From a bacterium (GTDB taxonomy: Bacteria > Desulfobacterota > Desulfocorpusculales > Desulfocorpusculum): 40,089 nucleotides of DNA. Shown one piece after another: positions 29,213 to 33,655 of the stretch. Every line of letters starts with the position of its first letter. Positions within the stretch are counted from its first letter, which is position 1. The position numbers and the translations under genes are program-made. The notes below the pieces were generated by a model. It made no database searches and was not told the DNA's origin. It saw only the letters and a program-made list of their open reading frames with translations. The stretch is taken from NCBI GenBank assembly GCA_037481695.1, contig JBBFLE010000006.1:193530-233618 (forward strand), in the 5' to 3' direction.

Positions 29213-29241
29213 TCGGCCTTCACATTGGAGGTGTGGGGTTC

Positions 29242-30972
29242 ATGGGAAAAAAACCCCCTTTTGAAGAGATGGATCCTTTGATGATGGATTTTTCCAAGGC
29301 AAAGGGCTATGGACCTGTTGAGGATGTCAACGGGGTCCTGAATTCGGACATTCTTACCTCAGAACATTACGATGACGTCATGGGGATGTTTGGGGACATA
29401 GACCTGGAGGTCTCCGATGTCATAAAGAAAGCCGAAGTGGCCCATGAGGCCGCTCCACTGTTGGAAAACGAAAGCCTCCTGCCTGAGGAAGATGAGGATC
29501 TATTGGGCAAGACCAATGATCCGGTAAAACTTTACCTCAGGGAGATGGGGGCTGTTTCCCTGTTGACCCGCGAGGGAGAAGTACAGATTGCCAAGCGGAT
29601 CGAGAGAGGCCTCAAAAAGGTGGCTCAGGTTGTGTGTCACTCTCCTCTTGCCATCCGGGAAATCCTGGATTTGGGAGAGCAGTTGCGCAAGGGAAGAATA
29701 AAGGTCAAGGATGTGATCAAGGATCTGGAAGATGAAGATATTTACATGGTGGAAGACGTGCATCTTCGTCGGATCCTTGAGATAATAGATCGCATTGGGG
29801 AGCTCAACGGGCAGATGCGCGCCTTGAAAGAGCAAAATCTGTCTAATCAGGAAATGATAAAAAAGGCTCAGGAGATCTCCGAGAATCTCCAAGAAGCCAT
29901 AAGAGAGCTGAACCTCAATGCTCGACAGGTGGATACAATAGTTAGAAAATTAAAGGAGCTTGTGGATAGGGTGGAGGCCGCAGAGGCGGTAGTGCGCAGA
30001 TGTGAAGAGGAGTTGGGCATGCCCCTCAAGGAGCTGCGCCGTTTTATGAGGAGGGTTAAGAAGGGGGGAAAGGAGCTGGAAAAGCTGGCCTTTGAGGTAG
30101 GCATGCCTCCTTCCAGATTGTTGCTCCTGGAACAGGAGTTGCGGGAAGCTGTTCAGGAGCTGAGGAAAGTAGAAGCAGAAGCCCAAATGAGCCCTCAACG
30201 CCTCAAACGGGATCTCAAGCGTGTCCTGGAGGGTGAGGCAGAAGCCTCCACAGCCAAAAGGGAGCTGGTAGAGGCGAATCTAAGACTCGTCATAAGCATT
30301 GCCAAAAAATATACGAATAGAGGACTTCAGTTTCTGGACCTGATCCAGGAAGGCAATATAGGCCTGATGAAGGCAGTAGACAAGTTCGAGTACCAAAGGG
30401 GTTACAAGTTCAGCACATACGCAACCTGGTGGATAAGACAGGCCATCACCAGGGCCATTGCAGATCAGGCCAGGACCATACGAATCCCGGTGCACATGAT
30501 AGAGACCATAAACAAGCTGATCCGTACATCCCGTTACCTGGTTCAGGAAATGGGCAGGGAGCCAACGCCAGAGGAAATTGCAGAGAAAATGGAGCTGCCC
30601 ATTGACAAGGTTCGCAAGGTTCTCAAGATCGCCAAGGAGCCCATTTCCTTGGAAACACCCATAGGCGAGGAGGAGGACTCCCACCTGGGGGATTTCATAG
30701 AGGACAAGAAGATAGTTTCTCCTTCCGAGGCGGTGCTGCGCAGAAACCTGGCTGAGCAGACTCGCAAGGTCCTTGCCACCCTGACCCCTAGGGAGGAAAA
30801 GGTCTTGCGTATGCGCTTCGGCATTGGGGAGAAAGCAGATCATACCCTTGAAGAGGTGGGGCAAGACTTCGAGGTGACCAGAGAGAGGATTCGACAGATC
30901 GAGGCCAAGGCCTTGCGCAAGCTGAGGCATCCAAGCCGCAGCAAGAGGCTCAAGACTTTTCTGGAGAGGTGA
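29242..30972 (+). CDS. rpoD: RNA polymerase primary sigma factor (sigma-70)
   Basis: The housekeeping sigma factor. From the ATG at 29242 (GGAGG 10 nt upstream) it has 576 residues: an acidic N-terminal region (1.1-like), region 1.2 [20 protein letters not shown], a non-conserved helical region of about 220 residues, region 2 from [17 protein letters not shown] through [13 protein letters not shown] (2.4), region 3 and region 4.2 [20 protein letters not shown]. The size and region 1.1-like start separate it from alternative sigmas. An in-frame GTG at 29233 overlaps the SD. It lies 29 bp after dnaG, the classic dnaG-rpoD pairing. Confidence 0.96.
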
Positions 30973-30982
30973 AAGTTCTGAT

Positions 30983-31004
30983 CCCCCTTTTCCCACCAAG
31001 GGGG
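30983..31004 (+). other. Hairpin between rpoD and the tRNA
   Basis: CCCCCTT / AAGGGGG, a 7-bp perfect stem with an 8-nt loop, 10 bp after the rpoD stop and 14 bp before the tRNA. There is no U-tract, so it may serve RNA processing between mRNA and tRNA as much as termination. Confidence 0.45.
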
Positions 31005-31017
31005 TACTGCAGTAAGA

Positions 31018-31090
31018 GGGCCCATAGCTCAGTTGGAAGAGCCACCGGCTCATAACCGGTTGGTCCCTGGTTCGAGGCCAGGTGGGCCCA
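31018..31090 (+). tRNA. tRNA with anticodon CAU (probably elongator tRNA-Met)
   Basis: Acceptor GGGCCCA / TGGGCCC, D arm GCTC...GAGC, anticodon stem ACCGG / CCGGT with loop CTCATAA (CAU), T arm CCTGG-TTCGAGG-CCAGG, discriminator A. The next bases are CTT, so the CCA is not encoded, unlike tRNA-Ala in this window. Position 1 pairs normally, which excludes initiator tRNA. The CAU anticodon could also be tRNA-Ile2 (lysidine-modified); sequence alone does not settle it. Confidence 0.9.
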
Positions 31091-31115
31091 CTTCAAACCA
31101 TTCAGGAGGTGTACC

Positions 31116-31229
31116 GTGGGAGTGGCCAAGGGAAAGAAGCGCGTCTCCCCGTGCCAACCCACGGGGACCTCATGGACTCCATGCACCCGCCTTGGGTGCA
31201 TTTTTTTTTTGAAGGGGAGTCAAAAGTGA
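31116..31229 (+). CDS. Possible 37-codon leader peptide ahead of nif3
   Basis: A short frame with AGGAGG at 31104-31109, 6 nt before its GTG, as good an SD as most real genes here. The peptide starts MGVAKGKKRVSPCQPTG and contains CIFFLKGSQ near its end. Its TGA (31227-31229) overlaps the nif3 GTG (31226-31228), the GTGA arrangement of translationally coupled genes. The intrinsic terminator at 31181-31210 lies inside the frame; its U-tract encodes Phe-Phe. I do not recognise the peptide. It could be an attenuator leader, a coupling frame or chance. Confidence 0.4.
   Translation: MGVAKGKKRVSPCQPTGTSWTPCTRLGCIFFLKGSQK
31181..31210 (+). terminator. Strong intrinsic terminator upstream of nif3
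   Basis: ATGCACCC / GGGTGCAT, an 8-bp perfect stem with a 5-nt loop, whose last base begins a run of ten T (31201-31210). It is the best terminator in the window. It ends the rpoD-tRNA transcript yet lies only 2 bp before the SD of nif3. A second hairpin, CCCCGTG / CACGGGG (31147-31166), precedes it. Confidence 0.85.
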
Positions 31230-32185
31230 GCTGCCTAGTCCGGGACGTGATGATGTGGCTCGAGGAATGCTTCCCTGCACAGAGCGCCGAGCCCTGGGAT
31301 CTAGTGGGTCTTCAAGTGGGGGATCCCTCGGCGTCAGTAAAAGGAGTCCTGGTAGCTCTGGATCCGACGTATGAGGCCTTGGAGGAAGCCGCCAGGTTGG
31401 GGGCATCTCTTGTGGTGACTCATCACCCTGTTTGGCTTGGCAGCCTCAAGGCAATCCGCTGGGATGAGCCTGAGGGAAGGATAATCTGCTCAGCCATCAA
31501 AAAGGGAATACAGATTCTGTGCGTTCATACCAACCTGGACAAAGCCTGGGGCGGGCCCAACGACCTGCTGGCACAGGCCCTTGGCCTGCAGGATATCCAA
31601 CCTTTGGGGGGAGGGATCGGCAGGATAGGAGTCTTGCCTCGAGAAATGGAGGTCTTGGAGCTTTGCGGGACTTTGGCTACCAGGCATCCCCAGATTAGGA
31701 TTGCAGGAGCTGTGGATCTCAAGGTGAGAACTGTGGCGGTCTGCTGCGGAAGTGGTGCCTCCCTATTGGTGGAGGCCAGGCACTGCGGTGCCCAGGTGCT
31801 TGTAACCGGAGATGTGAAGTATCACGACGCACGCAGGGCCGAAGCCCTTGGAATTGCATTGGTGGATGCAAGTCACTATGGCACGGAGAAAGCCCTTGTG
31901 CCGTGGCTGGCCCAAAGGTTGAGAGAAGCTTCCTCAAAACACAATTGGGGAATATCGGTCTGGTGTTCCCAGGGGCAGCAGGATCCTTTTTGGGAACCTC
32001 TGCTTAGTAAGGGTGGGGAGGGGATTTTTTCGGGGGAGGTGTGCTTTGGAGGAACAAACCAAGAGACTGGTGGAGATCCAACAAGTGGATCTTCGCCTGG
32101 CCGAGATCCACAGGCTGAGGAATCAGCTTCCCCAAGAGATGGAAAAGCTGATGGCCCAGCTAAAGGCAGAAAGGGATCGTCTTGA
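31226..32185 (+). CDS. Nif3-like dinuclear metal centre protein (GTP cyclohydrolase I type 2 homologue)
   Basis: Hexameric NIF3/YbgI family. Seen: DLVGLQVGDP, VVTHHPVWLG (metal His pair), ILCVHTNLDKAWGGPNDLLA, VCCGSGASLL, LVTGDVKYHDA and DASHYGTEK, so the metal ligands are complete. Upstream in-frame codons reach into the tRNA, so I start at the GTG at 31226, which has AGGGGAG with 6-nt spacing; this gives 319 residues. The usual family ending falls at QQDPF (about residue 256). Here the frame continues about 63 more residues in low-complexity Gly/Ser/Pro sequence that overlaps the next gene by 140 bp. That tail is suspect (see findings). The biochemical role is unknown despite the name. Confidence 0.85.
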   Translation: MSCLVRDVMMWLEECFPAQSAEPWDLVGLQVGDPSASVKGVLVALDPTYEALEEAARLGASLVVTHHPVWLGSLKAIRWDEPEGRIICSAIKKGIQILCVHTNLDKAWGGPNDLLAQALGLQDIQPLGGGIGRIGVLPREMEVLELCGTLATRHPQIRIAGAVDLKVRTVAVCCGSGASLLVEARHCGAQVLVTGDVKYHDARRAEALGIALVDASHYGTEKALVPWLAQRLREASSKHNWGISVWCSQGQQDPFWEPLLSKGGEGIFSGEVCFGGTNQETGGDPTSGSSPGRDPQAEESASPRDGKADGPAKGRKGSS

Positions 32186-32786
32186 GGAGGCCAGAGCAGG
32201 GCTTGAGGCTCTGAAGTCCAGGCGCAGAAGTTTGGAACGGGACTTGGAGGCAGGCGGCGAGAGAGTTCGTAAGACCCAGGCCAGGCTCTTTGAGGTCAAG
32301 ACCAACAAGGAATATCAGGCCCTGCTCAAGGAAATAGAAATGGCCAAAGAAGCCAACAGTGTCCTGGAGGAACAGATCCTGATTTTGATGGAGCAGATGG
32401 ATGAGGGGGCAAAGAAGCTAAAGGAGCTGGAAAAACAGGTGGCCTCGGCAGAGAGTTCCATATTGAGCCGCCAAAAGGAGATAGAGGCTCGCATTGCCAG
32501 CCTGGATTCCGAGGAGGCCAGTGCCCAGAAGGCCAGGCAAAGGGTTGCTGCGGGCATTGACCCCAACTGTATGGTTATATACGAGAGGATTGCACGCAGT
32601 CACGGAGGGGTGGGGGTGGCTAGGGTCGATGGCGGGACCTGCCAGGGATGTTTCGTGAGCATCCCTCCTCAGCTCTACAATGAGATCCTAAAAGGGGGCA
32701 GCTTGATCCAGTGTCCGTTTTGCCAGAGGTTTCTCTATCATCAGGGTATGGGTGATGAGGTACAGGAGGCCGAGGGTGGACCCTGA
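32046..32786 (+). CDS. Coiled-coil zinc-ribbon protein (CdsZ/CT398 family, C4 type)
   Basis: A 246-residue protein: about 180 residues of helical coiled coil (LVEIQQVDLRLAEIHRL to RQKEIEARIASLDSEEA), then a C4 zinc ribbon with CQGC and CPFC pairs about 25 residues apart. The start is a TTG with GGAGG at 32035-32039, 6 nt upstream; a GTG in-frame at 32013 is less well placed. This family often sits next to nif3 and rnhA. In Chlamydia the homologue interacts with sigma-54 and secretion or flagellar proteins, but no such partner is here. The start lies within the nif3 frame and the end overlaps rnhA. Confidence 0.85.
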   Translation: MEEQTKRLVEIQQVDLRLAEIHRLRNQLPQEMEKLMAQLKAERDRLEEARAGLEALKSRRRSLERDLEAGGERVRKTQARLFEVKTNKEYQALLKEIEMAKEANSVLEEQILILMEQMDEGAKKLKELEKQVASAESSILSRQKEIEARIASLDSEEASAQKARQRVAAGIDPNCMVIYERIARSHGGVGVARVDGGTCQGCFVSIPPQLYNEILKGGSLIQCPFCQRFLYHQGMGDEVQEAEGGP

Positions 32787-33192
32787 ATGGGTAGAGGTTT
32801 TCGTGGATGGGGCATCCCGAGGGAATCCTGGGCCTGCGGGAATGGGGGTTGTATTCCGAGAGCAAGGCGGCCAGCAGATGCTGGTGCTCAGGAAATACCT
32901 GGGAGAGACTACCAACAATGTGGCAGAGTACAGAGCGCTTTTGGCCGCCCTTGAGGAGGCCGCCCGAAGAGGGCTCAGGAGGCTTAGGATTCACACCGAT
33001 TCCCAGCTCATGGAAAGGCAGCTAAAGGGCGTATACAGGGTACGGCAGCCGCACCTAAAGAATCTCCACGAGCAGGCCTTGAGGGACCTCTCCAGCCTGG
33101 AGCAATACGAGATCGTGCACGTGCCCAGGGAATTGAACAAGGAAGCTGATGAAATGGCCAACAGGGCCATAGAGGAACATTTTCGAAGGTGA
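32776..33192 (+). CDS. Ribonuclease HI family protein
   Basis: A 138-residue RNase H fold. The acidic active site can be traced: VEVFVDGASRGNPGPAG (first Asp), NVAEYRALLAALEEA (Glu), LRIHTDSQLM (Asp) and LNKEADEMAN (last Asp). It lacks the basic-protrusion helix of E. coli RNase HI and so resembles the bacterial/archaeal RNase HI subgroup with wide substrate use. I start at the GTG at 32776, which has AGGAGG with 6-nt spacing. ATG/GTG codons at 32752-32757 are alternatives. It overlaps the zinc-ribbon gene by 11 bp and precedes rnpB. Confidence 0.9.
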   Translation: MDPEWVEVFVDGASRGNPGPAGMGVVFREQGGQQMLVLRKYLGETTNNVAEYRALLAALEEAARRGLRRLRIHTDSQLMERQLKGVYRVRQPHLKNLHEQALRDLSSLEQYEIVHVPRELNKEADEMANRAIEEHFRR

Positions 33193-33246: not shown

Positions 33247-33655
33247 AGGCCGAAGCGCCCAGTGCGGCCGCCCGCTTAAGTCCCCCCAAGGGGCCGGAGG
33301 CGGGAGGAAAGTCCGAGCTCCTCAGGGCAGGGTGCTCCGTAACGCGGAGTCCCGGTGACGGGCAGGAAAGTGCCACAGAAAAGACACCGCCCGCCTGTGG
33401 CGGGTAAGGGTGAAAAGGTGAGGTAAGAGCTCACCAGTCCCTCGGGCGACCGAGGGAGCTAGGCAAACCCCACCCGGAGCAAGACCAAATAGGAGGGGCT
33501 TCCCGCTTCATGCGGGGAGAATGGGTGGCCCGCCCAACCCTCGGGTATGGTCGCTGGAGGGCCCGGGTAACCGGGCTCCTAGAGGAATGGCCGCAGCCTG
33601 TGGGAGGGAAACCTTCCACAGGAACAGAACTCGGCTTACAAGGGCGCTTCGGCCT
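33247..33655 (+). ncRNA. rnpB: RNase P RNA (M1-type, bacterial class A)
   Basis: Catalytic RNA that matures the tRNA 5' end. P1 is a 14-bp helix: AGGCCGAAGCGCCC (33247-33260) pairs perfectly with GGGCGCTTCGGCCT (33642-33655). The universally conserved blocks are present: GAGGAAAGTCCGAGCTCC near 33304, GGCAGGAAAGTGCCACAGAAA near 33361, GGAGCAAGACCAAATAGG near 33476 and ACAGAACTCGGCTTA near 33624. The size of about 409 nt is normal for class A. It lies 54 bp after rnhA and converges on mltG with 3 nt between the P1 end and the mltG stop. Confidence 0.96.

Follow-up and report, generated by a model that had tools for sequence, protein, structure and literature searches.

How is a gene expressed when a terminator stands directly before its ribosome-binding site, and does a short reading frame running through this terminator set its output? 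The question is raised by nif3 in the window analysed here, a 40,089-nt stretch of DNA from a bacterium of the genus Desulfocorpusculum. On its plus strand, the window carries yqeY, dnaG, rpoD, tRNA-Met(CAT), nif3, a coiled-coil C4 zinc-ribbon gene, an rnhA-like gene and, directly 3′ of rnhA, the gene for RNase P RNA (rnpB; Table 1). The original prediction, made from this DNA alone, had described a 37-codon GTG frame with a perfect AGGAGG at 6-nt spacing between tRNA and nif3, the overlap of its TGA (31227-31229) with the nif3 GTG (31226-31228), and a terminator (8-bp stem plus ten T) before nif3, whose T-tract stops 2 nt before the nif3 Shine-Dalgarno sequence (SD). All of these elements are present in the sequence as described.

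Table 1. Features of the rpoD to rnpB region, in window coordinates.
Feature	Position	Strand	Evidence
rpoD, major sigma factor	29233..30972	+	Pfam Sigma70 regions 1-4
tRNA-Met, CAT anticodon, 3′ CCA not encoded	31018..31091	+	ARAGORN; Rfam tRNA
Linker, 89 nt, tRNA to terminator; sequence unconserved, no promoter found	31092..31180	+	Comparison of 107 gaps
GTG frame, 37 codons, AGGAGG at 31104-31109; probably incidental	31116..31229	+	Sequence; unconserved
Predicted hairpin, leader SD and GTG paired with CCCACGG and ACCUC	31106..31172 (ends approximate)	+	Folding
Intrinsic terminator, 8-bp stem ATGCACCC/GGGTGCAT, 5-nt loop, T10	31181..31210	+	Sequence; pairing probability about 1; position kept in relatives
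nif3 Shine-Dalgarno AGGGGAG	31213..31219	+	Sequence
nif3 (DUF34/NIF3)	31226..32044	+	Pfam PF01784, E 2.7e-74
Coiled-coil C4 zinc-ribbon protein (CT398_CC + Zn_ribbon_9)	32049..32786	+	Domain search
rnhA-like RNase H	32752..33192	+	Pfam RVT_3/RNase_H
rnpB, RNase P RNA class A, next downstream gene	33252..33654	+	Rfam RF00010, 289.8 bits

The terminator reads ATGCACCC-GCCTT-GGGTGCAT, followed by T10 at 31201-31210, i.e., a GC-rich hairpin directly followed by a T-tract, as is expected of an intrinsic terminator. Upon folding of the window RNA it formed with a pairing probability of about 1, and forbidding it cost 13.4 kcal/mol; thus, no antiterminator competes, and no mutually exclusive antiterminator fold was found in the window. 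The possibility of a repeated terminator family within the same genome was discarded, as a close pattern was found there once. The MAG Desulfarculaceae bacterium JdFR-97 is the sole good same-family relative, with a Nif3 identity of only 46%, so that the nearest comparison is already a distant one. It carries a near-identical hairpin, GATGCACCC-GAATT-GGGTGCAT with a T run, behind another gene (L114, 1477-1531); its own nif3 gap is without that hairpin. In the window, a further hairpin (CCCCCTT/AAGGGGG, 30981-31010), lacking a T-tract, is found in the 45 nt that separate the rpoD stop from the tRNA and is possibly a processing or stability element.

For the comparison with relatives, 107 distinct tRNA-Met to nif3 gaps were used, nearly all from the same phylum; in one of the three genomes examined from the class, the locus was not detected. 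Under strict criteria (6 or more stem pairs, of which 4 or more G-C, and 6 or more T in 8), a terminator was detected in 65 of the 107 gaps vs 0.4% of dinucleotide shuffles. With a relaxed, fold-based scan, terminators were found in 85 of the 100 gaps that measure 40 nt or more vs 5% of shuffles, spanning 38 of 48 family-level groups. A predicted hairpin-plus-T terminator between tRNA-Met and nif3 is nearly universal among the relatives in the phylum. Its position is conserved as well, a median of 24 nt separating it from the nif3 start and 91 nt from the tRNA; the usual location is 10-40 nt before the nif3 start, far from the tRNA. Clear terminators behind other tRNAs of the window's own genome are found 9-13 nt after the tRNA, which places the one between tRNA-Met and nif3 on the nif3 side of the spacer. 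The stem also covaries: among the ten distinct sequences of one family, 96.7% of the pairing was kept and 6 of 12 pairs had changed on both sides, a pattern matched by none of 500 shuffles. Where the original prediction had proposed to look for conservation of this interval in related genomes, the terminator was kept in position, but the leader frame, the strong SD and the long T run were not. A small-RNA gene in the linker was also considered and rejected, since the linker sequence is unconserved beyond near relatives.

Promoter scores within the linker were the same as in shuffles (5.46 vs 5.65 across 82 loci), and a nif3 promoter there was rejected for this lack of enrichment, with the reservation that consensus scans could miss a non-canonical one. 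In the window, the 15 nt between T-tract and nif3 GTG leave no room for a promoter, so that none appears between the terminator and the next gene, as expected of an operon-internal terminator. The 90 nt before the tRNA scored above shuffles (7.55 vs 6.31), with 54% scoring 9 or more. Neither in the window's own linker nor before its tRNA was a sigma-70 promoter recognised, and we therefore infer promoter use there from the relatives. At seven loci, nif3 follows only 10-24 nt after the tRNA without a terminator, as would be expected of co-transcription of nif3 with the tRNA.

The absence of promoter enrichment between tRNA and nif3 makes read-through the likely expression route for nif3, the zinc-ribbon gene and rnhA. 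This part of the original prediction gains from the comparison, whereas leader translation as the control of read-through does not. We consider it probable that 31181-31210 is a terminator internal to the operon, which closes off the rpoD/tRNA-Met transcript and leaves a minority of polymerases to read into the three downstream genes. Polymerase arriving from rpoD/tRNA-Met would mostly halt at the terminator, giving abundant tRNA precursor, and a minority of polymerases would pass it, giving the nif3, zinc-ribbon and rnhA mRNA. The terminator would then probably set the ratio, so that the tRNA is abundant and the downstream genes are expressed at a low level. The whole tRNA-nif3 spacer would be the leader of the read-through RNA, and the terminator would abut the nif3 ribosome-binding site because nif3 has no separate promoter. 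Both the supply of nif3 mRNA by partial read-through and the lack of a dedicated regulator are inferred. The next gene downstream, rnpB, may or may not share that transcript. In 21 of the 30 genomes examined, rnpB lies at most about 3 kb downstream of nif3 on the same contig. Judged by gene order, rpoD, tRNA-Met, nif3, the zinc-ribbon gene and rnpB form a phylum-wide cluster, which places the tRNA gene together with the RNA of its processing enzyme.

The original prediction assigned the control of read-through to the leader: ribosomes translating the 37 codons would block formation of the terminator, and the leader stop would couple translation to nif3. The perfect SD at its spacing and the TGA/GTG overlap speak for such a function, and a perfect-AGGAGG leader that runs through the terminator and ends near nif3 arose in only 0.74% of shuffles of the window linker. 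With any strong 5-mer SD admitted, this share rose to 5-9%, and the leader frame exceeds chance only weakly. About ten other AGGAGG-plus-start sites in the 40-kb window open no long gene. The codon score of the leader, -0.118 per codon, lies above the range of out-of-frame sequence (-0.45 to -0.60) but below that of real in-frame gene segments (mean 0.292, 10th percentile 0.092), and no family and no relative was found for the peptide. In the predicted fold, the leader SD and GTG are base-paired with CCCACGG..ACCUC, the terminator forming regardless. The 7-bp hairpin CCCCGTG/CACGGGG proposed within the leader exists in the sequence, but the folded RNA prefers this different hairpin.

Leader-peptide attenuators such as those of trp, his and thr combine a short frame and a terminator upstream of a structural gene, and the window resembles them in this respect. 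It differs in that there is no regulatory codon run and no antiterminator, and in that the frame passes through the terminator and is unconserved. Strong-SD leaders through the terminator occurred at chance level (2 observed vs 2.5 expected at 83 loci). Leaders with a weaker SD were found 11 times vs 5.7 expected at the same 83 loci, and several of these are from close relatives. Among the 65 loci with a strict terminator, two had a strong-SD leader, and only that of the window ends near nif3; an open frame that lacks an SD, crosses the terminator and stops at most 30 nt from nif3 is common (40 of 65). A counterpart is found in JdFR-97, where a GTG frame of 35 codons, preceded by GGGAG and starting about as far from the tRNA as that of the window, runs through that genome's own terminator (gap L113). 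However, this frame stops 36 nt before nif3, its peptide is unlike that of the window, and a weak-SD frame of this kind alone arises in 12.6% of cases by chance. Across the phylum the leader frame is unconserved, although a leader at the level of the family is possible. Taken together, control of read-through by leader translation is unlikely, and the 37-codon frame most likely arose incidentally, in a linker that is rich in purines and poor in stops.

RNA polymerase slippage at T10 had been suggested in addition, as an event that would yield a leader-Nif3 fusion. The arithmetic is correct: one extra base in the T10 tract would join the two frames, and upstream of its start the nif3 frame stays open as far as 31082. 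Programmed slippage would be expected to use a long homopolymer that is itself conserved and links two conserved frames; here, a T run of at least 9 occurs in just 2 of 85 loci, the leader frame is not conserved, and the T-tract is an ordinary part of the terminator. The proposal therefore lacks comparative support, and we regard the fusion as highly improbable.

The stem sequence itself recurs, which raises the alternative of a dedicated, conserved attenuator or RNA regulator, in which a protein or RNA would recognise the GGTGC hairpin and control nif3, the zinc-ribbon gene and rnhA. GGTGC/GCACC was present in 34 of 65 gap terminator stems vs 3 of 86 control terminators taken from randomly chosen regions in relatives, a contrast inflated by the many chance hairpins inside genes among these controls; in the window's own genome, 0 of 22 control terminators had it. 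Whole-genome searches with the hairpin pattern matched only a few sites per genome, which in most of the genomes tested included the nif3 gap, and the location of the terminator next to the nif3 ribosome-binding site rather than the tRNA would also suit a regulator of nif3. However, the tmRNA terminators of the same genomes likewise share their stem sequence across families, so that stem conservation alone does not imply regulation; this control weakened the GGTGC stem as proof of a special function, and we take the recurring stem to reflect an inherited terminator that changes slowly, which does not prove that it is specially recognised. A long stem, AACCCGTCTCTCCGG..CCGGG..GACGGGTT, is common to tmRNA terminators (L328-L356) of several families of the phylum; rnpB offered too few terminators to serve as a control for the stem motif. 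Neither a conserved aptamer nor a conserved linker was found, the window has no competing antiterminator, and Rfam scans returned no family, i.e., no riboswitch, T-box or known leader. For the T-box, the window gave no match at the gathering score and L112 gave none with E up to 1. A regulator acting on the terminator, e.g., a protein antiterminator or NusA/NusG, is possible, but a dedicated one recognising the hairpin is unlikely. We are similarly doubtful of a wider version, in which the phylum-wide terminator with its partly fixed stem would be a regulated gate coupling the expression of nif3, of the zinc-ribbon protein and possibly of RNase P RNA to the tRNA-Met transcript, with a translated leader as an extra layer in this family. 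An operon-internal terminator with partial read-through remains the reading that we prefer.

Such an arrangement has precedents. In the rpsU-dnaG-rpoD operon of E. coli, an internal terminator lowers the expression of the next gene. The window shares with it an operon around the same genes, dnaG and rpoD, but there the terminator lies between rpsU and dnaG, whereas that of the window is located downstream, between tRNA-Met and nif3. The name macromolecular synthesis operon is used for rpsU-dnaG-rpoD in PMC5179076. The enteric tRNA-tufB operon (thrU-tyrU-glyT-thrT-tufB) has tRNA genes and a protein gene on one promoter and transcript, with the expression of the protein gene set by the region at its start, according to the part of PMC6134099 considered here. 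It is thus a precedent for a tRNA that shares its transcript with an mRNA, although the tRNAs and the protein are different and no comparable tRNA-tufB terminator is described in that part (PMC6134099). The order of nif3 and the zinc-ribbon gene in the window corresponds to DUF34-DUF164 (COG0327-COG1579), the most frequent pair reported for DUF34; the sections of that review considered here do not mention tRNA-Met linkage or the terminator (PMC8469502). Our literature searches found no description of the tRNA-Met/nif3 junction.

To our knowledge, NIF3/DUF34 is among the most widespread protein families without an agreed function. The mechanism proposed here is ordinary, and the junction is unusually well conserved. 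A conserved read-through terminator joining nif3, tRNA-Met and often RNase P RNA in one operon would offer a simple and testable account of how NIF3/DUF34 is dosed, and the same model would explain the architecture kept across the phylum.
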